Assembly (NCBI GenBank): GCA_013822395.1
Contig: PNKK01000003.1
Coordinates: 1 to 64,000 of the forward strand
DNA from: Anaerolinea sp.
GTDB lineage: Bacteria > Chloroflexota > Limnocylindria > Limnocylindrales > CSP1-4
Length of the DNA: 64,000 nucleotides
Direction: 5' to 3'
Shown here: positions 8,285 through 21,619 of the stretch, piece by piece
Layout of the letters: each line of letters starts with the position of its first letter
How positions within the stretch are numbered: the first letter of the stretch is position 1
Position numbers and translations under genes: made by a program
The notes under the pieces: model-generated
What the model was told of the DNA's origin: nothing
Seen by the model: the letters and a program-made list of their open reading frames with translations, nothing else
The model's database searches: none

Positions 8285-8443
8285 GTGAACAAGGTCCTGT
8301 TGACCGGCCGCCTCACGCGGGACCCGGAGATGCGCGCGCTCGCCTCCGGGAAGCACGTCACGCAGTTCAGCGTGGCGACAAACGAGTATGCCGGCAACGG
8401 CAAGGAGCGTCCCGAGTACCACAACATCGTCACCTGGGATTAG
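8285..8443 (+). pseudogene. ssb: Single-stranded DNA-binding protein, 5' fragment (interrupted by integrated element; new stop TAG at 8441-8443)
   Basis: GTG start: NKVLLTGRLTRDPEMRALASGKHVTQFSVATNEYAGNGKERPEYHNIVTWD then stop; the missing part lies at 20511-20799. Confidence 0.93.
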
Positions 8444-8460
8444 CGTCCACTTGGTCGCAC
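8433..8460. promoter_or_regulatory. attL junction (core 8433-8439; element-side arm to 8460)
   Basis: Switch from ssb sequence to element sequence immediately after CCTGGGA; arm pairs with the right-end arm. Confidence 0.82.
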
Positions 8461-9014
8461 TATCGGCTTAGGCTCTCGAACCAGCCCTGGGCGACACCGC
8501 TGACGATCCCGCTAATGACGGCGACGATGAGCACACCAAGCGCAGCCGCGATCCGCCCGCGGGTCGTCCCGATCAACCACCGCAGAAACACGACAAGCTG
8601 CCCGAGCCAGAACAAGGGGCTCGTAAGCCGGTAAAGCTCGTCGCGCGACACCGGTCGCGTTGGTCCGTCCTCGACGTCTGCACGCATCCTTCCAATCGCC
8701 ATGTCGAGGTGCTGGATGGCCATGCCCGCCATCGCGTTGTAGGACGGGTGGCCGGGGCTCCCGATCGTGTCGCGCACAACGTCTGTGCTGGCAATGCCGC
8801 CGAACTGTGTCATCTGCGCGATGCCGTAGCGCGCGATGACCTTGTAGAGGCGTCCGTATTCCTGGGCGAGTAGCGCGGACTCGGTGCCGATGCGTTGCTG
8901 CGCGCGATCATCGGTCGGAACGAAGCGGATCACGTTGTCCCGGACGAAGTTCGCGTACTCGACGAGCCTGTTTCGGAACGCGACGACACGCTCCAGGTCC
9001 GCGCTGGTCGCCAC
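8460..9014 (-). CDS. Hypothetical protein with C-terminal transmembrane helix, adjacent to MTase/nuclease fusion
   Basis: 184 aa; hydrophobic C-terminus IAAALGVLIVAVISGIVSGV; starts immediately after the stop of the MTase fusion gene. Confidence 0.7.
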   Translation of the reverse strand: MATSADLERVVAFRNRLVEYANFVRDNVIRFVPTDDRAQQRIGTESALLAQEYGRLYKVIARYGIAQMTQFGGIASTDVVRDTIGSPGHPSYNAMAGMAIQHLDMAIGRMRADVEDGPTRPVSRDELYRLTSPLFWLGQLVVFLRWLIGTTRGRIAAALGVLIVAVISGIVSGVAQGWFESLSR

Positions 9015-9017
9015 GAC

Positions 9018-10712
9018 CTACTCCTCGTCGTCCTCGACGGGCTCCTCGTCATCGAAGGCGTCGTCGGCGGATGTCATGGCCGCGGCGGCCGCGCCGAGGG
9101 CCATGCTCTCAAGTGAGAGTTGGTCGGCGGGCTTCACATACCGCTTCGCCTTCATGTAGGCCGAGTGCGCCGACGCAGGGATATCGGGCTTCTTCTTGTC
9201 CTCGAGGATCTCGCGGAACGTGAGGAACTGGATCTTCGGGAAGGAGCGCTGCCAGAGGCCAGACACGTAGCTGCCCGCCGTGTCGCGCTCGGTCCTCATC
9301 GGGCCAGTCGGCTCCTCCAGCGTCACGAAGATGCCCATCGCGGCCTTCTCCCGGTCGACGCTGTTCTTGAGGTCGGCGATGTCGTTCCTCTGGACCTTGC
9401 CGGTCTTCACGCTGACGATGATCGTCTCCAGCCGCCCGTTCTCCTCCGTGAACGTGATCTTCCCGTCCATCCCGGCATCCGCGCCCATCTTGACCTCGTC
9501 CCCGCCGATGGGGGCGGCGCCGATGAGCGACAGCGCGAGGGCCTGCGCCTTGAACCGGCCGCGTGGCGTGTCGATGAGCTGACGGACGCCCTCGACCTCC
9601 TTCGGCAGACCCTCGATCTCGATGTCCTTGAGGCCGAACACGTCTTGGAGCCGCGCCCGCATGACCGCGATGGCGAGGTACGAGACGTCCATCCCGATCC
9701 ACTTGCGGGCTGAGGCCTGCGCCGCGACGAGCGCGGTCCCGCAGCCGCAGAAGGGGTCGAGGACGACATCGCCCGGGTTCGTCGCCGACTCGATGATCCG
9801 CTCCAACAGGGCGAGCGGCTTCTGCGTCGGCCAGTTCAGCTTCTCCTTCGAGGAGTTGTTGAGCTTGTCGATGTCCCACACGTTGTCGATGAAGGCGCCA
9901 CTCGCGAGGGCCTCGTCGAGGTACCGCTTGATGCGCTGACCTTTGCCACGGTCAGACAGGACGTACTCACGACCGTCCTCGTCCACGCGGACCTTCTGCT
10001 TGCGGACCTTGACGTACTCCTCCTTCGACGCCCACGGGCGCGAGTAGGAGTTGAAGACCTGCTGCTCCACGCCGTCCTTCGCGTAGAACAGGATCGTGTC
10101 CGACCGGCTCTCGAACTTCCCGCGCAGCTTCTTGTTCCAGCCCGTGTAGTGCCAGACGATCTCGTTCCGGAACTGCTTCGCGCCGAAGATCGCGTCCATC
10201 ATCACGCGGAGGTAGCTATTCGCCACCTCATTGACGTGGAGAAAGATCGACCCGCTCGGCTTCAAGACCCGACGAAGCTCGACGAGCCGGACGGTCATCT
10301 CGACGAGGTAGGCGAACATCTGGTTCGGACCGAGCGCCTGCCGCATCGCGGCGATCAAGCCGCTGACCTGGACCGGGACGGCGCCGCCATGAAGCCCAGT
10401 GTTCGTCAGATAGGTGTAGTGCTCCTCGGCCCGGGGCCCCCAGTGCCAGATGTCTTCGAAGGCGACGATCTGCGCGTCGCTCTTCCGACCCGACTCGTCC
10501 TCGAAGATCAGGTTGTAGTTGCGGTTCGAGTTGAACGGCGGGTCGAGGTAGATCAGGTCGACCGAGTCGGGCGGGAGCCAGCCGTCGCGCAACAAGTCGA
10601 GGTTGTCGCCCGAGTAGAGGATGTTCGTCCGGAGGCCAGGCGGCGTCGGCGTCGCGATGGCGGCGGGGATGGCGGTCGCGGTGATCGCTGCGGACTTCAC
10701 TCGGGTCGGCAT
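9018..10712 (-). CDS. Site-specific DNA methyltransferase fused to a PD-(D/E)XK/Mrr-like nuclease-like domain
   Basis: IYLDPPFNSNRNYN, WPTQKPLALLERIIESATNPGDVVLDPFCGCGTALVAAQ; then GADAGMDGKITF....IIVSVKTGKVQRNDIADLKN. Confidence 0.88.
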   Translation of the reverse strand: MPTRVKSAAITATAIPAAIATPTPPGLRTNILYSGDNLDLLRDGWLPPDSVDLIYLDPPFNSNRNYNLIFEDESGRKSDAQIVAFEDIWHWGPRAEEHYTYLTNTGLHGGAVPVQVSGLIAAMRQALGPNQMFAYLVEMTVRLVELRRVLKPSGSIFLHVNEVANSYLRVMMDAIFGAKQFRNEIVWHYTGWNKKLRGKFESRSDTILFYAKDGVEQQVFNSYSRPWASKEEYVKVRKQKVRVDEDGREYVLSDRGKGQRIKRYLDEALASGAFIDNVWDIDKLNNSSKEKLNWPTQKPLALLERIIESATNPGDVVLDPFCGCGTALVAAQASARKWIGMDVSYLAIAVMRARLQDVFGLKDIEIEGLPKEVEGVRQLIDTPRGRFKAQALALSLIGAAPIGGDEVKMGADAGMDGKITFTEENGRLETIIVSVKTGKVQRNDIADLKNSVDREKAAMGIFVTLEEPTGPMRTERDTAGSYVSGLWQRSFPKIQFLTFREILEDKKKPDIPASAHSAYMKAKRYVKPADQLSLESMALGAAAAAMTSADDAFDDEEPVEDDEE

Positions 10713-10891
10713 GGGCACCTCCGCCAAGAGGGTACCACGCACCACGCACCCTTGGCGGAATGGGCCGCGACGCCCCGGACTGGACTGGTCGGGCGAGCCG
10801 AGATCGAGCGTCCGGGCGCGGAGCGCGGCCCGGTGACGGATCCTACGGGTCCCCGCTTACCCGACACTTACAGGCTCCGAGAGGGCATGCG

Positions 10892-10897
10892 TTATAA
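10892..10897 (+). promoter_or_regulatory. Candidate -10 (TTATAA) for the rightward element operon
   Basis: AT-rich hexamer in a high-GC divergent intergenic region 38 nt before ATG 10935; TTACAG at -35-like distance. Confidence 0.3.
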
Positions 10898-10934
10898 GTG
10901 GATCGACACGCACGCCGACCGATCCGAGGGGACG

Positions 10935-11177
10935 ATGACCGAACCGACAACGACATGTAGCCACGGGCTGGACAAGGCCTTTCGTGGGATGCGCACGATC
11001 GCGCTGTCCATCGACACGGTGACCTTCGAGTGCCCGACCTGCGGCGCGCAGCAGATCGCGCTGCGCTGCGCCGGGATCACGAAGTCGGGTGAGCGCTGCC
11101 GCGTCGCCGCCACCAACGGCGCGACCGCGTGCTTCCGCCACCGCCGGAACGTCGCGGTCGCGGAGGTCGCCCGATGA
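10935..11177 (+). CDS. Small Cys/His-rich putative zinc-binding protein
   Basis: FECPTCGAQQIALRCAGITKSGERCRVAATNGATACFRH; ATGA overlap with next ORF. Confidence 0.72.
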   Translation: MTEPTTTCSHGLDKAFRGMRTIALSIDTVTFECPTCGAQQIALRCAGITKSGERCRVAATNGATACFRHRRNVAVAEVAR

Positions 11178-11353
11178 GTGAGCCGCGCTGCGACCGTCGG
11201 TACAACGAGGTCCACGAGGACTACATCCTCGTCACCTGCGAGTGCGGGCTCCAGTGGACTCGTCGCCGGTGCGACGCCACGACGCTCGTCGGGAACCGAT
11301 GCCGACACGGGCTCAGGGAGGGCCGCTGCCCCGCGCACGGCGACCGGCCGTGA
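11174..11353 (+). CDS. Small Cys/His-rich putative zinc-binding protein
   Basis: VTCECGLQWTRRRCDATTLVGNRCRHGLREGRCPAH; overlaps neighbours ATGA/GTGA. Confidence 0.72.
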   Translation: MSEPRCDRRYNEVHEDYILVTCECGLQWTRRRCDATTLVGNRCRHGLREGRCPAHGDRP

Positions 11354-13149
11354 AGATCTCCCTCACGCCGCGGGCTCGCTACGCCGCGCTCGTCGAGCGG
11401 CTCGAAGCGGCGAGCGGTGCCGCCGCGGACATGTACGGCTGCCCGTCGTGCGGCAGCCAGGACAACCTCCACGTCTGGCTGGACGACAAGGGGCTCGGCG
11501 TCAAGTGCTTCACCGTCGGGTGCGCCGTGCAGGGTGTCGCGTCGCTCGAGGCGGCACTCGACGCCTACGAGGGCACGTCCGAGGACGCGCCGGAGCCACC
11601 GGGGACGCCCGCGGACTTCGTCGTGACGGACGACGCGCTCGACAACCTCGCTCGCTACTGCGGCGTCGAGAGGTCAGCGGTCGAGGGGCTACCGGTCGAG
11701 GACGGGGGCAAGGGCGAGTACGTGGTCGTGTTCCCGTCCGGGGCGCGGAAGCGGCGCCACTGGACGGGGCGCGCCAAGTACACCTGGGATGCCGACGTGA
11801 AGCCGCGCCCGGTCTGGCCCGTGGACGCACAAATGCCCGAGGAGGCGTGGTTCACCGAGGGCGAGACGGACTGCATCGTCCTGCGATCGCTCGGGATCGC
11901 GGCCTACTCGCTCGGCTCGGCCAGCGACTCGGCGGGCGTCGAGGTCTGGGAGGCGCTGCGATCCCGCGGGCTCAAGCGGGCCGTCATCGCGGGCGACGCC
12001 GACGAGGCAGGTCGTGAGGCCACCGCCAAGCGGATGAGGGACGCGCTGGCCGCGGGCCTGCGCGTCGCGTCCGTAGTCCCGCCCGGCTACGACCCGCTCA
12101 CCGGCGCTCACAAGGACTGGCGAGCGTGGCACCTCGACGGCGAGACGGACGTCCCGGAGCCCACGGGGACGGGCGTGGTCCTGACGATGGACGAGTACCT
12201 CGCAGCCCACGAGGGCGATCGCGTCGAGTGGGCCGTCGAGGGCATCGCCGCATTCGGGACCGTCTCGATGCTCGCGGGTCCGATGAAGGGCGGGAAGACG
12301 ACGCTGATGGAGAACGCCTTCCGGCTCGTCGGCGGGACCGAGGACGCCTTCCTCGGCCGCTGGTCGGTCGCTGAGGGCTTGGAGGCCGCCCTGTTCACCG
12401 AGGAGGGCGCGATCACCGTCCGCCAGAACATGGGGCACCTGCCCATCCACGTCGTGTCGCGCCGCGACCGCATCCCGTCGCGGTGGTCGCTCGCGGAGGC
12501 CGTCTCCGAGGCGCTCGACTGGGCGAGCGAGCGGCCGCGGGCACTCGTCGTGTTCGATACCTACGACAAGTGGGCGGGGATCAAGGACGAGAACGCCGTC
12601 GGCGAGAACGTCGCGGCGATCGAGACGTTCTACGCGCTCGCGGAGGCCGGCGCCGCCGTCCTGCTCGCGCACCACAGCCGCAAGGGCGGAGGCGAGTACG
12701 GCGAGGGCATCCGCGGGTCGGGAGCGATCCTCGGCGCGGTGGACCACGCGGTGGAGCTGAAGTACGTGTCGCCCACCTCGGACCGGCGCCACCTGGAGAT
12801 GCACGGGCGGCTGGTCGAGAACTCGCGGCGGCTGCTCGACTTCGACCGCGAGACGATGACGTACTCGCTCGTGGACGAGGCCGACGAGTACGCCGACGAC
12901 ATGCTCGCGAAGGCGTCCCTCGTGCCCTCGAAGGCTGAGGACCCGGACGGCGTGAACAACGCGGCGCTCAACGCCCTTTGGGACTCGAAGGACGGGAAGC
13001 GCACGCGAGACAAGCTGCTGGAGATGGGCTACCTCGTCCGGTCGGACGAGCTGGTCAAGGTCGGGCGCGGGCAGGAGTGGCGCTACTGGAGGGCCACGCT
13101 GCCTGTGATCAAGTTCACGCGGCCGTCGGAGGCCACCGATGGACAGTAG
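11350..13149 (+). CDS. Primase-helicase (Zn-finger + TOPRIM-like + RecA/RepA-like ATPase)
   Basis: YGCPSCGSQDNLHVWLDDKGLGVKCFTVGC; WFTEGETDCIVLRSLG; MLAGPMKGGKTTLMENAF Walker A; ALVVFDTYDKW Walker B; GTGA overlap start. Confidence 0.87.
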   Translation: MKISLTPRARYAALVERLEAASGAAADMYGCPSCGSQDNLHVWLDDKGLGVKCFTVGCAVQGVASLEAALDAYEGTSEDAPEPPGTPADFVVTDDALDNLARYCGVERSAVEGLPVEDGGKGEYVVVFPSGARKRRHWTGRAKYTWDADVKPRPVWPVDAQMPEEAWFTEGETDCIVLRSLGIAAYSLGSASDSAGVEVWEALRSRGLKRAVIAGDADEAGREATAKRMRDALAAGLRVASVVPPGYDPLTGAHKDWRAWHLDGETDVPEPTGTGVVLTMDEYLAAHEGDRVEWAVEGIAAFGTVSMLAGPMKGGKTTLMENAFRLVGGTEDAFLGRWSVAEGLEAALFTEEGAITVRQNMGHLPIHVVSRRDRIPSRWSLAEAVSEALDWASERPRALVVFDTYDKWAGIKDENAVGENVAAIETFYALAEAGAAVLLAHHSRKGGGEYGEGIRGSGAILGAVDHAVELKYVSPTSDRRHLEMHGRLVENSRRLLDFDRETMTYSLVDEADEYADDMLAKASLVPSKAEDPDGVNNAALNALWDSKDGKRTRDKLLEMGYLVRSDELVKVGRGQEWRYWRATLPVIKFTRPSEATDGQ

Positions 13150-13377
13150 GACAACCGAAGGACAACCGATGGACAGCGCACTGTCCTTCGGTCGAGGACG
13201 GCCGGGGCGACGCCGCCTGAAAGGCGTCGCCACGTACGAGGGACCGATGGACATCGACTCGACGTATACCCCTGTCCATCGGTCCATCGGTCATCGAGAG
13301 GAGGATATGAGCACGAACGAGAACGATCACCCCGGGACCCACGATGCCCGACCGATGGACACGACCTGTCCTTCGGT
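13135..13377. repeat. Iteron-like array: nine copies of ACCGAWGGACA in both orientations
   Basis: Forward: 13135-13146, 13154-13165, 13165-13176, 13243-13254, 13351-13362; inverted: 13181-13192, 13272-13283, 13283-13291 (short), 13366-13377. Confidence 0.9.
13206..13231. repeat. 9-bp perfect hairpin GGCGACGCC-GCCTGAAA-GGCGTCGCC within the iteron region
   Basis: Direct reading of inverted repeat. Confidence 0.75.
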
Positions 13378-13389
13378 CCGGCGTACTGC

Positions 13390-13412
13390 GAGGGGTAGGC
13401 CCCTCTCTTTTT
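13390..13412 (+). terminator. Rho-independent terminator candidate
   Basis: GAGGGG-TAGG-CCCCTC followed by TCTTTTT. Confidence 0.65.
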
Positions 13413-13746
13413 CGCGGGTAGTTGCGTACTTGCGCAACCACGCAAGGGGTACGTCCGTGCGAGGAGCCGAGTCAGGCGGCTTCGCACGCATCTCCGCCTC
13501 TCTCCGTGGTGCCCTGTCGTGTCGATCGTCGTCCGTGCGATCGTCGCGGCTCTCCGTGGCTCCTACCGCGGCTCCGTGCACCGTGGCGCACGCTGCCTCG
13601 ACGGGTGAAGGTGGACTGTCCACGTCGGACCGCGATGCCTGTGGAGGCGGCCAGGTAGGCGCCTCCGGGCGGCCTGCTACTTGGCCTCGCACCGAGCCGC
13701 TCGCCTGCTCGCGAGGCGGCCGCGTCGAGACCTCCGGGGTGTCGGC

Positions 13747-14139
13747 ATGAGCGGCCAGTTCGTCCGACCCAAGCAGCGGCCGCAGCGTCGGACCATCTCG
13801 GGCCAGGGCTTCGCGGGCGGGTCCTTCGAGCGGGTCCCGGACAGGGGCCGCCACGGCCTGTCGCGGCAGGAACTGGGCGTCCTCTTGCGCGAGCAAGGGA
13901 ACCGGTGCGCGATCTGCGGGACCTACGAGTGGGGCACCCTCGGCCCGATGGTCGATCACGACCACGAGCTCGCCAAGCAGCACGGGCACAACGAGTACAA
14001 GGGCTGTCGGCGATGCGTTCGCCAACTGTGCTGTGGGCGCTGTAATACCTTGCTCGGCAACGCGCAGGACGACCCCGAGATCCTTCGGCAGGCGGCCGCC
14101 TACCTCGACCACTTCAACGCCCGTCGCGGGGTGTCCTGA
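13747..14139 (+). CDS. Recombination endonuclease VII family protein
   Basis: GNRCAICG...MVDHDHELAKQHGHNEYKGCRRCVRQLCCGRCNTLLGNAQDDPEIL. Confidence 0.88.
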   Translation: MSGQFVRPKQRPQRRTISGQGFAGGSFERVPDRGRHGLSRQELGVLLREQGNRCAICGTYEWGTLGPMVDHDHELAKQHGHNEYKGCRRCVRQLCCGRCNTLLGNAQDDPEILRQAAAYLDHFNARRGVS

Positions 14140-14140
14140 C

Positions 14141-15100
14141 GTGCCGCGGGTCTGCGTCATCTGCACCTCCGGGCTGGCACCGGCGGCCGAGAAGCTCGTC
14201 GGCGAGGGTCGCTCGATGCGGTCGGTCGCGGCGAACCTCGGGCTCTCCTACGACGCCCTCAAGCGGCACATGCAGCACGTCGCCCGGCGCGTCCAGCAGG
14301 CCCCCGCGCCGTCGCGCGCTACGTCGCGCCCGTCGCGCGGTACGGGCGCTTCGACCCCGGCCGCGCCGGTCCCGGACGACCCGTGCGAGACGTTCGAGCT
14401 GGCCTTCGGCAGCCCGCCGATGGACCACCAGCGCGAGTACCTGACGGAGACGGCGGACACGTGCTTCCTGAAGGGGCGCCAGGTTGGCGCGACGCAGGCC
14501 GCCGCGGGGCTCGCCATCCACGTCGCGCGGTCGGCGCCGGGGAAGCTCGCGGCGATCATCTCGCCCTCGATGAAGCAGAGCACCGAGGTCACCCAGCGCG
14601 CCCGCGTCGGGCTCTGGGACCTCGGCGAGCGGCTCGTGCAGGACAGCACGTCGCTCATCCGGCTGGAGAACGGGTCCCGGATCCTCTCGCTGCCCGGCAC
14701 GGCGCGAGCGGTGCGCGGCTACTCGGCCGACCTGCTCATCCTCGACGAGGCCGCGTGGATCACGGACGAGACGTGGACGGCGGCGCGCCCCATCACGAGC
14801 GCGACCCGCGGCCGGACGATCGTCCAGTCCACGCCGGGCGTCCCGGTCGGGTGGTTCTGGGAGCTGACCCGCGACGTCCCCGAGGGCTGGCACGAGATGC
14901 GGGTGACGTCCGAGCAGGCGCCGACCGTGGACCCCGAGTTCCTCGCGCGCGAGAAGGCGCGGCTCGACCCGCACCTCTACCTCCAGGAGTACGCCGGGGT
15001 GTTCGCCTCGGTCGGGTCCTCGGCCCGCTGGTTCCCCGAGGACGAGTACGACGCCAAGGTCAACAAGAAGTTCGGCGCGTGGGGCGCCGAGGAGGGCTGA
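14141..15100 (+). CDS. Phage terminase large subunit, ATPase part (with N-terminal HTH-like segment)
   Basis: GTG start; SMRSVAANLGLSYDALKRHM; FLKGRQVGATQAAA Walker A-like; ADLLILDEAAW Walker B; QSTPG coupling motif. Confidence 0.82.
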   Translation: MPRVCVICTSGLAPAAEKLVGEGRSMRSVAANLGLSYDALKRHMQHVARRVQQAPAPSRATSRPSRGTGASTPAAPVPDDPCETFELAFGSPPMDHQREYLTETADTCFLKGRQVGATQAAAGLAIHVARSAPGKLAAIISPSMKQSTEVTQRARVGLWDLGERLVQDSTSLIRLENGSRILSLPGTARAVRGYSADLLILDEAAWITDETWTAARPITSATRGRTIVQSTPGVPVGWFWELTRDVPEGWHEMRVTSEQAPTVDPEFLAREKARLDPHLYLQEYAGVFASVGSSARWFPEDEYDAKVNKKFGAWGAEEG

Positions 15101-15795
15101 TGAACACCACAGTTGCCGCGGCGAACAGTCGCGGCAGGGTCTCCGTCGTAGCGCTGGAGACCATCGAGCGCAGCGGGCTCCTGAAGCCCGTGAGCGTCGT
15201 GCGCTACACGCGACAGGTCCCCGCGTCCGCGGGCCCGGACGAGGCGCGGGAGACGGTCTTGGAGGCGTGCCGGGTGATCCTGGCCGACCCCGAGAACCGG
15301 GACGGCGACCACCCGCGCGTCGTCGTGTCGAGCACCGCCTACGGGAGCGCGCTCTACGAGATGCTCTACGAGGACGGCAGGACGGGCCGCGTCCGGCCGT
15401 TGATGCCCCGCAAGCCGCTGGGCATCAGTAGCTACGTGACGTCGCTCGACCCGCGCGTCGAGAAGGTCGCGCCGAACCGGCTCGCCGGCGCGCTCTACAC
15501 GGCCTTCAAGTCGGGTCGGGTCGAGTTCGCCGACGGCTTGACGAAGCTGCGCGCCCAGATGGGCGCCTTTGTCCCGGTCGAGACCAAGTCGGGCTCGCTC
15601 GCCTTCGGCAACGAGGACATGAGCGACTACGACCACGCGGTCGTCGCGCTCATGCTCGCGGTCATCGCGGCGGGCAACCGCGGCTACGGCGAGTACCGCT
15701 ACGAGGACAGCAGCGGCGACGTCTGGCTCTCGAAGGCGATGGCCGTCGCTCGTCGCGGCGGGTCCGAGGGCTTCACGTTCGGAGCCCGGCCGTGA
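15100..15795 (+). CDS. Terminase nuclease-domain-like protein (split C-terminal half)
   Basis: Adjacent to ATPase ORF with overlapping stop/start; ALYTAFKSGRVEFADGLTKLRAQM...DYDHAVVALMLAVIA resembles terminase RNase H-like C-termini. Confidence 0.6.
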   Translation: MNTTVAAANSRGRVSVVALETIERSGLLKPVSVVRYTRQVPASAGPDEARETVLEACRVILADPENRDGDHPRVVVSSTAYGSALYEMLYEDGRTGRVRPLMPRKPLGISSYVTSLDPRVEKVAPNRLAGALYTAFKSGRVEFADGLTKLRAQMGAFVPVETKSGSLAFGNEDMSDYDHAVVALMLAVIAAGNRGYGEYRYEDSSGDVWLSKAMAVARRGGSEGFTFGARP

Positions 15796-15995
15796 TCGGG
15801 TTCGTGTACTTCGAGGACCCGGCCGACCTCGAAGCATGGCTCGCGTACCGGCCCGTCCCGGCGGCCGTCGCACTCTGCGCCCTGAGCGCCGACGTGGACG
15901 TCCCGGCCGCGGCCACCCCCACCACCACAACGGAACCCCGGCCGCGATCGCTGCTCGATCGCATCAAGACGCTCGTCGGGAGGCTCCGTGCCTGA
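15792..15995 (+). CDS. Hypothetical small protein
   Basis: GTG start overlapping previous stop; 67 aa. Confidence 0.5.
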   Translation: MIGFVYFEDPADLEAWLAYRPVPAAVALCALSADVDVPAAATPTTTTEPRPRSLLDRIKTLVGRLRA

Positions 15996-16785
15996 CCTCG
16001 ACACCACCCAGTACGGCGCACGGACGATCCGTCGCATGGACACCGCAATCAAGACAAGGAGCACCATGAGCAAGCATCGACCGCTCTACGACAAGGCCAT
16101 CAACGCGCTGGCCGACCACATCGTCAAGCCGGGGCAGATGCTCCGGGACCTCGAGGCGAAGCGGGAGCAGTACCCGGAGACCTTCTACGACCAGGAGCGC
16201 CAGCGGCTCATCCGCTGGGCGCGCGACCACGACTCGGCCGTCATGGGGGCCATGAACGACTACCTCGGCGCGATGGGAGCGGAGGCCAACAAGCTCCGGG
16301 TGCAGGCCGACGCCGACCGGCCCGCCGCCGACCGCACGGCCGAGATGATGGAGCGGCAGCAGCTCCTCGCCTCCGGCGTCCGCGCGGGCGACCTGCTCGC
16401 GCAGGCCGAAGCGGCGCTGGAGGCCGACCGCCCGCGTCGCGCCGCGTTCCTCGTGGACGTGGCCCGCTCGATGGGCGGAGTCGCCCTCGGCGACCTTCCC
16501 AACCGCGTCGATGACGCGCTGGACGAGGTGGACGAGAAGCGATCGCAGGCTCGGGCCATCGAGGACGAGGCCGAGGAGAACTACCGCGAGCTTGAGGTCC
16601 TGCGCCTCCGCGCACTGGCGGCGGCCGGGGTCGGCCTCAACCACGACGGCGGCGCGGGCACCGGCACGCAGGAGGCGCTCGTCCGGGCGAACATCGCGCG
16701 GAAGCTCGCGGCGTTCCACGCGGGGGGCGACTTCTCGGACCCGAAGGTCGAGGAGGCGACGGGCGCGCCGTCGCTCGTCTCGTGA
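15988..16785 (+). CDS. Hypothetical Ala/Glu-rich helical protein
   Basis: 265 aa, charged helical sequence; operon overlap with neighbours; start could be later. Confidence 0.6.
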   Translation: MPDLDTTQYGARTIRRMDTAIKTRSTMSKHRPLYDKAINALADHIVKPGQMLRDLEAKREQYPETFYDQERQRLIRWARDHDSAVMGAMNDYLGAMGAEANKLRVQADADRPAADRTAEMMERQQLLASGVRAGDLLAQAEAALEADRPRRAAFLVDVARSMGGVALGDLPNRVDDALDEVDEKRSQARAIEDEAEENYRELEVLRLRALAAAGVGLNHDGGAGTGTQEALVRANIARKLAAFHAGGDFSDPKVEEATGAPSLVS

Positions 16786-17063
16786 CCGCCTTCGACTGGA
16801 CGGACCGGCTCCGCCGCCCCGTGACCGAGTACCGCCGGACCTGTCGCCGCTGCGGCGTGGTCCGGTACGTCCCGGTCGCGATCGCGACGGCCAAGCCGCA
16901 GAAGGCGTCGCGCCTCGCGGGCTGGCTGACGCCGGTAGTGGGCCGGAGGCGCCAGCAGGTCAACGCCGAACGGTCGCTCATCGCTGACCACAACGCCCGG
17001 ATCGCCGAGGAGCGGCGTTGTCGCTCGTGCGGCTCCGAGAGCTACGACGAGGAGGAGGCATGA
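16782..17063 (+). CDS. Zinc-ribbon-like small protein
   Basis: RTCRRCGVVRYV ... ERRCRSCGSESYDEEEA. Confidence 0.65.
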   Translation: MTAFDWTDRLRRPVTEYRRTCRRCGVVRYVPVAIATAKPQKASRLAGWLTPVVGRRRQQVNAERSLIADHNARIAEERRCRSCGSESYDEEEA

Positions 17064-17284
17064 CACCCGAGGAGCAGGCGGCGGCGATCATCGCCGACCC
17101 CGCGTGGAGCTTCACGGACAACCCCACGTTGGCGATCGCCCACGCATCGACCCGCGCGGCCACCGCGCAGCGCGAGGGCAACACGACCCGCGCCCGCTAC
17201 TGGACCTCCGTGGGCCTCGCCCTGTGCGAGGCGGCGGGCGTCGAGCCGGGCCAGGTGCTGGTCAACCTCCGGGACGGCCAGTAG
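17060..17284 (+). CDS. Hypothetical small protein
   Basis: 74 aa; ATGA overlap with upstream ORF. Confidence 0.55.
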   Translation: MTPEEQAAAIIADPAWSFTDNPTLAIAHASTRAATAQREGNTTRARYWTSVGLALCEAAGVEPGQVLVNLRDGQ

Positions 17285-17627
17285 CAACGATCGACGCGAG
17301 GCACGGAACTCGATACCGTCGCCTCGTCGTTGACGCCCCGGAAGTCCTGGGGCGCGACGTTCCCTTCGGGGCAACGTTGCCAACGGCGGGTGAGTCGCGG
17401 CGGCGCCGTCGGGATCACGTCCAGACCGATCATCGGGCAGCCGATGTGGACGCCCGGCGGCGTTGCTGTTCCCGGTCCACTACGAGGGCGCCCACGACGT
17501 CGGGCGCGTTCGTCGTCGCGCGCGCTGCCGCGATCGCTCTCGGTGGCCCCTACGCGCTCAGGCTGTGCCTCCGACGGGACCTTCGGACCGTATCCGCGTG
17601 CCGCTGGCGTATGCGACGCTGGCGCGC

Positions 17628-18635
17628 ATGGGAGACGTCCGAGAGCGCATCGCGAACCACGACCCGAAGGACTGCGACGCCTGCTGGGAGTTCAGGGACC
17701 GGCGGTGGCGGAACACCTGGACCAAGAAGGCCGGTGAGGCTCACTACCGCGACGGTCTGGTGCGCCACGTTCGGGTGTTCGCAGGTCGGGCGGTAGGTCG
17801 CCACCTCTCCTACCCCGAGGACGTGGCGGCGATGGACGAGTTCGTGGGCCGCGGCGAGAAGAGAGCGGCGGCGATCGCATCTCGACCTACCGAGGCGCCG
17901 GCCTGGGTGCCGGACGACATGAAACCGCTCTGGCGTTGGCTGGACTACGACGAGGAGATCATCCCGACGCACGTTCTGCTCGAAGACGGTCGCAGCTCGT
18001 TGGCGGTCCCGGAGCTGGAGATCCCCGAAGACCTCGAAGTCCGTCCCGGCCATGACGCCACCACGTGCCCCGTCTGCGTCTACTGGGCGCGCGCCTGCGT
18101 CTGTGTCCTCCCGAACATCGAGGACCTCGAACGGCAGTGGGTCAAGCGACGGCCAGACGACCACATCTGGAGCGGCATCGACGACGCGGACCCGACCCCG
18201 GCGGCCACCGAGGAGCAGCGCGCCTTCTGGCGCGAGTCGTTCGAGCACACGTCGCGCGTGATCGAGCACGTCTTCGCGGTTCGCCCAAAGGGCGAGGACG
18301 CGCTGACCTGGCACGGCCGAGTCCTGCGCGCTGCCGCTCCTGACGACGAAACGGCGATGGACAACTTGCGATGGAGCGAGTGGAATAAGGGTCGCCGGGA
18401 ACGAGGCGGCTCCTACAAGAAGGCTCGGAAGGACGAGCCGCCCCCTGCGCATCTGTACCGGGACGGCGTACCACCCATCGGCGGGGGCTACAGCTCCGGA
18501 GGCAACCGCCTGCTCGTGAAGTACCTGCGGACGCAAGGGCTCGATTGGGCCGAGGGGACGCGGTACGCCGAGAACCTGCCCGTCGAGCTGATCCGCCACG
18601 CACCGGCCTTCCTACGGAAGCCCGCTCGACACTGA
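17628..18635 (+). CDS. Hypothetical protein with CxxC pairs (orphan)
   Basis: 335 aa from MGDVRERIANHDPKDCDACWEF; TCPVCVYWARACVC. Confidence 0.6.
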   Translation: MGDVRERIANHDPKDCDACWEFRDRRWRNTWTKKAGEAHYRDGLVRHVRVFAGRAVGRHLSYPEDVAAMDEFVGRGEKRAAAIASRPTEAPAWVPDDMKPLWRWLDYDEEIIPTHVLLEDGRSSLAVPELEIPEDLEVRPGHDATTCPVCVYWARACVCVLPNIEDLERQWVKRRPDDHIWSGIDDADPTPAATEEQRAFWRESFEHTSRVIEHVFAVRPKGEDALTWHGRVLRAAAPDDETAMDNLRWSEWNKGRRERGGSYKKARKDEPPPAHLYRDGVPPIGGGYSSGGNRLLVKYLRTQGLDWAEGTRYAENLPVELIRHAPAFLRKPARH

Positions 18636-18686
18636 GGCGGGCCCGTCCGCTGGGGGATAGCGAACGAGCCCGTGAGGTCGAGCGTA

Positions 18687-18965
18687 TCAGGAGGCAGTCG
18701 GGTCGAGCGGCGCCTCGTCGGCCTTGAGCGCGACGACCTTTCCGCGGGGCGGGCGCTTGGCGTTGGTCGTGCGCGGCGATCGCGCTGCGGTGGTCGCCTT
18801 CGTGGCCTTCCTGGCCGTGGCCCGCTTGGCCTCCGCGTGCGCCTTGACATGAGCAGCACACCACGTCCATCCGGGCTTCCCGACGCGCTGGTCGCAGTCG
18901 TAGAGCTTCGCGGCGTTGCGGTGGCGGCAGATCCCCTCGGCCGGGCGGGTGGTCGTGGCCTTCAT
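18687..18965 (-). CDS. Small basic Cys/His protein
   Basis: MKATTTRPAEGICRHRNAAKLYDCDQRVGKPGWTWCAAHVKAH..., Lys/Arg-rich tail. Confidence 0.6.
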   Translation of the reverse strand: MKATTTRPAEGICRHRNAAKLYDCDQRVGKPGWTWCAAHVKAHAEAKRATARKATKATTAARSPRTTNAKRPPRGKVVALKADEAPLDPTAS

Positions 18966-19152
18966 CGCGTGTTCCCTTTCGTCTCGGTCGGCGCGTCCGT
19001 CGCGCCGGTCGAGTCGATAGGAACGAGCCGGTCCGGCAATGTCCAATGCTGCGGCGACTTCGTCGTAGGAGCCTCCGAGAGCCCGCCCAGCATGGCGCGC
19101 GACGTTCGACGCGACGATGCGGCGCGGGGCGCTCTCGGTGGCCCGGAGCGCG

Positions 19153-20454
19153 TCAGGCGGCGTCGTCCTCGTCGTCGCCGCGCATCGCCGGATCGCGCCA
19201 CTCGAAGGTCATTGCCGGGACCCACTTCGACGGGCCCCGGTACGCCTTCTCGCTCATGTCGACCTCGACGTGCGAGAACAGGCGGCGGAGGTAGGCGTTG
19301 ACCTTGGCGGGGTCGTCGTGCTCGATGTCGGGCGGCATGGTCAAGAGCTTGATCCAATGGACGGCGCTCAGCTTCGACTCTTCCTCGGCGATGCTCGTCA
19401 GGCGCACGTCGCGCTCGGCCTTGTCGTAGAGCCCGTCCTCGAAGTTCACGAGGACCCGCCGCCGCTTCTCCGCGAGGCGCCGGAGCTCGGCCTCGTCGGC
19501 GGCCGTGCCCTTCTGCATCCGTCGGATCGACACGAGCGCTCGCTCGGCCTCGGCCTTCACGACGGGCAGGAGCTTCGTCTCGTTCACCCAGCCGCGAGCG
19601 TGCGGGACCGTGCGGGCTCGCGAGCAGGCGTAGCGCACATCGCCGTGCCGCTTGTTGTACGAGCCCGTGAGGAACGTGCTCGCCTTCGAGCCGACCCGGA
19701 CGCCGCGGGCCTCGCAGGTGGAGCACCGGACGAGCCCGGAGAACCGGAACGATCGCTTCCCGGCGGGCGCGCCCCGACCGGAGGTCGGGAGCACTTCGTT
19801 CGGCGCCTCGCGCTGGATGATCGAGCGAACGACGGTTCCCGACCACGCGGCGCCACGGACGCGACACGGGACGCCCTGCTCATTGAGCGACCGCGCCGCG
19901 CCGTCGTAGGACCCACGCTCGCGGAAGGCGTCGAGCACGATCGTGACGTCCTCGCCCGGCCGCTGGCCGTAGGCAGGCTGGCCGGGACCGTCCCAACCGT
20001 CGTCGCGCGCCCGCTTCGCCGCGAAGGCGTCCTTGACTCGCTCGCTGGCGACGTCCGCCTCGAACTGCGCGAGCGACGCGAGGATGTTGCTCGTGAGCTT
20101 CCCGGTCGCGGTCGAGGTGTCGATGTGGTCCCGGTCCACGCGGACGCGGATCTTGCGCTTGTCGCAAAGCTCGAAGAAGTCGGCGAGCTGGGAGACGGAC
20201 CGGGCGAACCGCGACAGCGAGTAGGCGTAGACCCCGGTAGCGACGCCGTCCTCCACCGCGCGCAGCAACTCGTCCCACCCAGGGCGCCTCTCTCGCCCCT
20301 TGCGGCCCGAGATGTCGAGGTCGGACAGGATCACGACGTCCGCGTGCCCGTCGGCGGATGCGAGGCGCCTGATGGCCTCCTCCTGCATCTCGGGAGAGAG
20401 CATCCTTGCGGCGTCGTGGACGACGGACTTCCTGATGTAGCCGTAGGCGGTCAT
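19153..20454 (-). CDS. int: Serine recombinase / integrase
   Basis: TAYGYIRKS N-terminus, SDLDISGRKG-, YSLSRFARS, ASLAQFEADVASERVK; recombinase and zinc-ribbon-like (CSTC...C) segments; ATG at 20454 lies 50 bp from the core. Confidence 0.93.
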   Translation of the reverse strand: MTAYGYIRKSVVHDAARMLSPEMQEEAIRRLASADGHADVVILSDLDISGRKGRERRPGWDELLRAVEDGVATGVYAYSLSRFARSVSQLADFFELCDKRKIRVRVDRDHIDTSTATGKLTSNILASLAQFEADVASERVKDAFAAKRARDDGWDGPGQPAYGQRPGEDVTIVLDAFRERGSYDGAARSLNEQGVPCRVRGAAWSGTVVRSIIQREAPNEVLPTSGRGAPAGKRSFRFSGLVRCSTCEARGVRVGSKASTFLTGSYNKRHGDVRYACSRARTVPHARGWVNETKLLPVVKAEAERALVSIRRMQKGTAADEAELRRLAEKRRRVLVNFEDGLYDKAERDVRLTSIAEEESKLSAVHWIKLLTMPPDIEHDDPAKVNAYLRRLFSHVEVDMSEKAYRGPSKWVPAMTFEWRDPAMRGDDEDDAA

Positions 20455-20481
20455 CGGTCGGGCCTCGTGACGGATTAGCGA

Positions 20482-20510
20482 GTAATACCAAGTATACGTC
20501 AATCCTGGGA
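20482..20510. promoter_or_regulatory. attR junction (element-side arm GTAATACCAAGTATACGTCAAT + core CCTGGGA)
   Basis: Junction to ssb 3' half; arm is inverted-repeat related to attL element arm. Confidence 0.82.
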
Positions 20511-20799
20511 CCGGCTCGCGGAGATCTGTGGGCGGTACCTCGGCAAGGGCCAGCAGGTGGCGCTCGAGGGTCGGATCCAGACCCGTACCTGGGACGACGA
20601 CAAGGGTGCCCGGCACTGGAAGACGGAGATCGTGGCGAGCTCCGTCGAGATGCTCTCGGGCCGGCGCAAGAAGGACTACGCGGCCGAGTCGGCGGCGGAC
20701 GGCCTCGAGGCACAGGCGACGCGCTTCGAGGGCACGTCGGACGCCGACGCGGACGACGTTTCGGCCGACGACCCCATCCCCGAGGCGGCGGCCGCCTGA
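20511..20799 (+). pseudogene. ssb: Single-stranded DNA-binding protein, 3' fragment
   Basis: Frame reads RLAEICGRYLGKGQQVALEGRIQTRTWDDDKGARHWKTEIVASSVEMLSGRRK...DPIPEAAAA*. Confidence 0.92.
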
Positions 20800-20960: not shown

Positions 20961-21209
20961 ATGATGCAGCGCACCCAGATCGCCCTCGACTCGGCCGAGC
21001 ATCGACGCGCCAGGCGGCGCGCCGCCGAACTTGGAATTTCGCTCGCCGAGTACGTCCGGCGCCTCGTGCGACAGGACCTCGAGGGCCCGGTGATCAATGG
21101 TGACCCAGCGAGCCTCTTCGCACTCGGCGACTCGGGCGGGTCGGATGTCTCGACCGCCAAGGATGCGTACATCGCCGAGGCGGTCGCCAGCGCTCGCCGA
21201 TCACGATGA
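20961..21209 (+). CDS. vapB: VapB/CopG-like antitoxin
   Basis: RTQIALDSAEHRRARRRAAELGISLAEYVRRLV ribbon-helix-helix style; 4-bp overlap with PIN gene. Confidence 0.75.
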   Translation: MMQRTQIALDSAEHRRARRRAAELGISLAEYVRRLVRQDLEGPVINGDPASLFALGDSGGSDVSTAKDAYIAEAVASARRSR

Positions 21210-21619
21210 CCTTGTTCGTTGACTCGTCGGCCTTCTACGCCGCGGCCGATGTCGGCGACGCGAGCCATGGCCGCGCAACAAGGCTTCTCAGCTCGGGCGA
21301 GTCGTTGGTGACAAGCGACCACGTGCTCGTCGAGTCATGGCTGTTGATCCGCCACCGATTGGGACGAAGCGCCGCCGAGCGGTTCTGGGCGGCGATCCGC
21401 GGTGGGGCCGCCGCACTCGAGCCGGTCGGTTCGGCTGACCTGGAGTCGGCCTGGATCATCGGCCAGGCCTTCGCCGACCAGGATCTCTCCATCGTCGACC
21501 GGACGAGCTTCGCGGTGATGGAGCGACTCGGTGTCCTGCGAGCCGCGACGTTCGACGCCGACTTCGCCGTGTATCGCTTCGGATCCCGCCGGGAGCGCGC
21601 GTTCGAGATACCCGGCTGA
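21206..21619 (+). CDS. vapC: PIN-domain toxin (VapC-like)
   Basis: MTLFVDSSAFYAAAD; DQDLSIVDRTSFAVMERLG; FDADF. Confidence 0.85.
   Translation: MTLFVDSSAFYAAADVGDASHGRATRLLSSGESLVTSDHVLVESWLLIRHRLGRSAAERFWAAIRGGAAALEPVGSADLESAWIIGQAFADQDLSIVDRTSFAVMERLGVLRAATFDADFAVYRFGSRRERAFEIPG

Follow-up and report, generated by a model that had tools for sequence, protein, structure and literature searches.

Why does a gene for a single-stranded DNA-binding protein (SSB) run into a stop codon in mid-frame, with the rest of its reading frame 12 kb downstream? We analysed this locus in a window of 64,000 nucleotides, the whole stretch of DNA under study (contig PNKK01000003.1, positions 1 to 64,000). The window belongs to G000, a genome assembled from a metagenome (194 contigs totalling 2.93 Mb, with 69.7% completeness), which was compared with other genomes of Ca. 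Limnocylindrales.

The split ssb2 gene and its junctions

The gene, designated ssb2, starts with GTG at 8285. Its codon 52, GAT, occupies 8438-8440, and the directly following TAG stop codon (8441-8443) comes from the inserted DNA. The continuation of the gene begins at a second copy of CCTGGGA.

8285..8440, + strand: ssb2 5' part, codons 1-52, N-terminal half of the OB-fold (Pfam SSB, 1.4e-14)
8433..8439, no strand: attL core CCTGGGA; the joined flanks align gap-free to empty sites
8440..20510, no strand: integrated element, 12,071 bp including one core copy; missing from relatives with an intact ssb2 at this place
20504..20510, no strand: attR core CCTGGGA
20506..20799, + strand: ssb2 3' part, codons 50-147, without a DDLPF tail

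The 12,071-bp element cuts ssb2 after codon 52. Joining 8285-8432 to 20504-20799 gave a single ORF of 147 aa, free of stops and gaps, and a genome-level profile search matched Pfam SSB to both halves. The joined flanks aligned without gaps to the intact ssb genes of relatives, over 388 bp with 86% identity (L007/L200) and over 356 bp with 88% identity (L201). With either half alone, the match to relatives' ssb broke off only a few bases from the core. The preliminary description had placed the stop and the remainder of the gene at these positions, with CCTGGGA at both junctions, and had predicted an in-frame 147-aa SSB after removal of one core and the interior; its coordinates were exact, and the restored frame was confirmed by the gap-free alignments.

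The window contains 11 occurrences of CCTGGGA, its complement included, so the 7-bp core by itself is weak evidence. The insertion is settled because many relatives carry the empty site. The order purA - GGDEF/HD - ssb2 - (CaX) - rsmI was common to element-free relatives, in which the uninterrupted ssb sought by the preliminary description was found at this locus with the same neighbours. That description had also considered that the halves might be joined by misassembly. An artefact of assembly or binning, with foreign DNA joining two ssb halves, might be suspected in a metagenome-assembled genome of 194 contigs and 70% completeness, but synteny was conserved on both sides, the att structure had an integrase at attR, and the same arrangement was present in other genomes; we consider such an artefact extremely improbable. 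The gene order, which matches that of the element-free relatives, excludes that two unrelated halves were misassembled. The 12,071-bp element is a real insertion at a known empty site.

A VapBC-like pair (small antitoxin-like and PIN proteins) was located at 20961-21619 of the window, between ssb2 and the CaX antiporter gene. It was absent from the same place in the relatives compared.

Genes of the 12-kb element

The following features were found between the two cores.

8449..8455, + strand: left-end outer arm, ACTTGGT, of the inverted repeat at attP
8460..9014, - strand: protein of 184 aa, C-terminal stretch hydrophobic, without a family match
9018..10745, - strand: N6/N4 DNA methyltransferase with a C-terminal Mrr/iREase-like domain (PF01555 1.2e-43, PF22722 2e-10, PF04471 1e-5)
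11353..13149, + strand: Toprim + AAA_25 primase/helicase (PF13481 9e-13, PF13155 2.8e-6, phrog_239 3e-11)
13681..14139, + strand: recombination endonuclease VII (PF02945 4.6e-16)
14135..15100, + strand: terminase large subunit, ATPase part (Terminase_6N 1.5e-13; phrog_7579 2e-30)
15097..15795, + strand: ATGA-overlapping ORF, possible terminase nuclease part, judged by position and reading frame only
15988..16785, + strand: 265-aa all-helical protein
17625..18635, + strand: protein, start uncertain
18687..19046, - strand: small Cys/His-containing protein adjoining the integrase
19153..20454, - strand: large serine recombinase (integrase), 433 aa (PF00239 3.7e-29)
20487..20493, + strand: right-end outer arm, ACCAAGT, of the inverted repeat at attP

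When the element ends were joined, a 7-bp inverted repeat (ACCAAGT...ACTTGGT) was centred on the core, with its arms 13 bp out. Alone, this repeat is weak (p about 0.09). The independent element of another genome, G088, showed the same att layout; there the repeat measures 9 bp and its arms stand 14 bp out (p 0.0065).

The integrase gene lies 50 bp from attR. Its product has a resolvase catalytic domain and exceeds 400 aa, as large serine recombinases do; the zinc ribbon PF13408 scored 0.0027 and 18.5 bits, below the 25.3-bit cut-off. With a short core at both ends, an integrase beside one att site and an empty site in relatives, the insertion has the structure of an integrative element, which supports the earlier proposal of a serine-recombinase element inside ssb. 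The integrase is distantly related to phage serine integrases; an alignment brought up one phage with an integrase 34% identical. Identity to the other two integrases at ssb2 sites was 41% and 36%. A tree of 16 integrases was poorly resolved, with the G035 row out of frame, and shows only the diversity of the ssb2-site integrases. The integrase was also compared with the NCBIfam equivalog for XisF of the fdxN element; it matched in the catalytic domain only, with 68 bits against the 375 required, and this assignment was rejected. The protein encoded at 18687..19046 had no family match, and its position suits a candidate recombination directionality factor.

The terminase region (14135-15795) consists of two ORFs with an ATGA overlap, the ATPase part and then the possible nuclease part. 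The former was 37% identical to a Thermus phage TerL; the latter matched no named family above threshold. A structure model of the 265-aa protein gave no fold match. For the product of 17625..18635 no family was matched, and the structure model was unreliable.

Searches with Pfam/PHROG-type profiles recognised no capsid, portal or tail family in the 12-kb element, in which some ORFs are without a family. The gene set, with an integrase, primase/helicase, TerL and endonuclease VII and no full virion set, resembles that of PICI- or PLE-like phage satellites. A complete temperate prophage was rejected, the terminase being the sole recognised virion-type gene in 12 kb. Judged by gene content, the element may be a phage satellite or a reduced or remnant prophage, and either fits. 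Scans of viral contigs with the element's integrase, primase and terminase returned no close relatives.

Recurrent insertions in ssb2 and comM

A separate SSB gene was located in rpsF-ssb-rpsR in 9 of 9 relatives examined. The DDLPF-type tail was absent from all 31 ssb2 proteins checked and present in all ten other SSBs, nine rpsF-linked ones and a prophage SSB of G000. These comparisons indicate that the interrupted gene is a conserved accessory paralogue; the housekeeping ssb was rejected as the target, given the missing tail and the separate rpsF-ssb-rpsR of relatives. A search of 107 genomes of the family returned an unbroken ssb2 in most of them. S6 and S18 were not found in the 69.7% complete G000 assembly, and its rpsF-ssb-rpsR most likely lies in the missing part, simply unassembled. 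A search of this genome for a second ssb, as the preliminary description had advised, returned one full copy (L004:4886-5398, G000:C2), which sits in a prophage-like region beside genes of RusA-like and DnaC-like type. Because its neighbours are prophage-like, it is not the host's replicative SSB, and it was rejected as a host back-up.

The preliminary description had further suggested that ssb might be switched off and on, with excision responding to DNA damage or the state of replication. Read as a switch of the housekeeping SSB, this has only the exactly restored frame in its favour. The gene is the tail-less paralogue and the housekeeping gene is separate in relatives, so no such switch is supported, and we regard it as highly improbable.

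In total, ssb2 was disrupted in six Ca. Limnocylindrales genomes, at several positions and by different elements. We counted only junctions within contigs and G088, for which both element ends were assembled. G113 was cut in the same codon region as G000, with an integrase directly beside it that is 41% identical to that of G000; the cuts in G035, G012 and G016 fell at codons 46 and 84-86. Contig ends within ssb2 (G102, G090, G026, G036, G112, G061, G086) were about as frequent as expected by chance in fragmented assemblies and were left uncounted. So was a fragment on G005:C46, which adjoins an IS630-like transposase gene, with an intact copy elsewhere.

The ssb2 pieces of G035 lack codons 47-84 and are separated by 14 kb (L035:4036-17960). 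This insert carries the defence genes for an ApeA/HEPN-type protein and an MmeI-like type IIG restriction-methylase; no integrase was recognised between the pieces.

The G088 element is complete on a 5,299-bp contig (L086, G088:C7) with ssb2 sequence at both ends. Its core has 17 bp, differs from CCTGGGA and lies at ssb2 codons 59-64. It encodes a probable major head protein (3e-21), a scaffold (7e-10) and a large serine recombinase, indicating a probable capsid-bearing, satellite-like element. The flanking contigs end exactly at the core; each overlaps the element contig by 23 bp, and they overlap each other by 17 bp. Since de Bruijn assembly breaks in this way when the left flank has two continuations, the empty site was apparently present too. 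Empty and occupied ssb2 sites probably coexisted in the sample, which makes excision plausible.

Could ssb2 then be under a reversible switch, as in active lysogeny, with cue-driven excision restoring the gene as with prophages in Listeria comK or the element in Bacillus gerE? The frame is restored precisely, the contig ends of G088 fit coexisting empty and occupied sites, and gene-restoring elements are known, gerE being one (PMC5595907). However, genomes differ in their elements and att positions, the majority are simply uninterrupted, neither a regulator nor a cue was visible, the mixed sample of G088 fits incomplete occupancy equally well, and the G000 contig reads straight through the element. 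We therefore consider a switch of this kind quite unlikely. That ssb2 is intact in most family genomes, and that unrelated insertions entered it at several different codons, speaks for parasitic disruption on repeated occasions over a single evolved regulatory device.

Truncated comM genes were first found near integrases of the same group as that of G000, in which comM itself is intact. comM is hit even more often than ssb2: at least 13 of 98 genomes carried a break inside the gene, clear of contig ends. The cuts lay near aa 70 (G014, G018), aa 294 (G080, G108), aa 315 (G035) and aa 370 (G003, G025, G034, G090, G097, G105, G117, G122, G124). Where one contig holds both ends, the insertions span 8 to 65 kb, and several adjoin serine recombinases; the aa-370 elements of G025, G090 and G117 have a common serine recombinase (50-57% identical). 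The hotspot loci are L163, L165, L168-L173 and L179-L198.

As controls, purA had no insertion in 96 genomes, its truncations being contig ends or in-place frame breaks, and lepA had none in 105 genomes. The lepA truncations of G095 (a scaffold gap) and G099 (plain loss of the match near the C-terminus) were not accepted as insertions. Fisher tests gave p 1.6e-4 for comM (13 genomes) against purA, p 0.0023 for comM against lepA, scored with the two lepA truncations later judged non-insertions, and p 0.03 for ssb2 against purA, with small ssb2 counts; the genomes are phylogenetically non-independent, and these values are guides only. Independent elements thus entered the same gene more often than they entered purA or lepA.

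The genes lepA, pheT and ndk also had related serine integrases at their 5' ends (loci L090:3276 in G026, L166 in G100 and L095 in G003). The ORFs beside these integrases appeared intact.

These insertions may be understood as follows. The satellite-like element's own large serine recombinase joined attP to an attB inside ssb2; the insertion cuts the OB-fold after residue 52, so that the protein is off while the element stays, and precise excision would restore the gene. The second recurrent target in the same bacterial family, comM, by homology encodes a branch-migration helicase of natural transformation. Disabling transformation would keep element-free chromosomal DNA from displacing the element through recombination. 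Loss of ComM, a transformation helicase, lowers transformation (PMC11472951), loss of ssbB lowers pneumococcal transformation (PMC3128108), and integrated elements are thought to break transformation genes and so avoid removal by transformation (PMC4774983, PMC12637031). From the convergence of independent elements on ssb2 and comM, together with these published cases, we infer a protective effect, and we favour with moderate confidence a serine-recombinase, satellite-like element in ssb2, with ssb2 and comM targeted because loss of transformation protects the element.

That the elements act against transformation, and that ssb2 serves competence, are both proposals, and the function of ssb2 is the weak link. 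Its neighbours are GGDEF/HD, CaX and rsmI, and no com genes adjoin. Since pneumococcal SsbB keeps an acidic tail, tail loss by itself is no mark of a competence SSB. ComEC was present in G000 and in 33 of the 41 genomes searched, which is permissive only; it also occurs in bacteria without known competence. We know of no demonstration of natural transformation in Limnocylindria.

Alternatively, serine integrases may simply choose coding sequence that is conserved, and ssb2 and comM may be convenient targets, merely conserved and non-essential, whose loss brings the element nothing. Conserved genes of unrelated kinds (lepA, pheT, ndk) do serve related integrases as targets, each at its 5' end, and disruptive insertions persist only in dispensable genes. 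Because the essential purA cannot be disrupted at all, part of the comM and ssb2 excess reflects mere dispensability. On the other hand, two transformation-related genes were entered at many positions by different recombinase groups, while lepA, which is long, conserved and dispensable in E. coli, had no insertion in its 105 genomes, although it is only one control of the dispensable type. We consider mere dispensability, with no gain to the element, the less likely explanation. Less likely again, transformation might be active in this uncultured family and constantly attacked by unrelated satellite-like elements, each with a large serine recombinase, whose att sites evolved separately in ssb2 and comM; excision of some would be frequent enough to keep empty sites alongside occupied ones, making transformability reversible and element-controlled.

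Comparison with known systems

The kind of event is already known from elements in ssbB and comM. As far as searched, what is new is the lineage of the hosts, an SSB paralogue as a target of large serine recombinases, the presence of several att sites within a single short gene, and comM as a companion target within one family. If disabling of transformation is the correct reading, the conflict between mobile elements and transformation reaches uncultured Chloroflexota, beyond streptococci, Acinetobacter and a few others; the insertions would be an indirect sign that Limnocylindrales bacteria take up DNA, and the tail-less SSB paralogue would be a candidate transformation protein. The many natural att sites of large serine recombinases in two genes are useful for studying the evolution of new targets.

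The statement that no described element uses ssb as attB was incomplete. Prophage phiB6 disrupts ssbB near its 5' end in Streptococcus mitis B6 (PMC2828477), and rare pneumococcal prophages disrupt it too (PMC12637031). As in G000, a secondary SSB gene is broken near the 5' end, and reduced transformation is the proposed effect. However, those are full-size streptococcal prophages, in which the attP core follows the integrase gene at a distance of 36 bp, whereas the Chloroflexota element described here measures 12 kb and encodes a large serine recombinase. The SsbB of streptococci has an acidic tail and a proven role in competence; ssb2 is a tail-less candidate.

The Listeria comK prophages and the B. 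cereus gerE element (PMC5595907) likewise interrupt a gene that precise excision can restore. They differ in regulated excision, of which no sign was seen for the G000 element. Vibrio cholerae PLE (PMC6002521) is, like the G000 element, small, with a large serine recombinase, replication and packaging-type genes and no complete virion set; the likeness is one of gene content, and the target gene of PLE differs from ssb2. In Acinetobacter, Aggregatibacter, Mannheimia, Francisella and Pseudomonas, unrelated elements converge on comM (PMC4774983, PMC11472951), as they do here. The published insertions are Tn7-like AbaR islands or use other integrases, whereas large serine recombinases are involved here, and ssb2 as a second target in the same family distinguishes the present insertions from the published comM cases.
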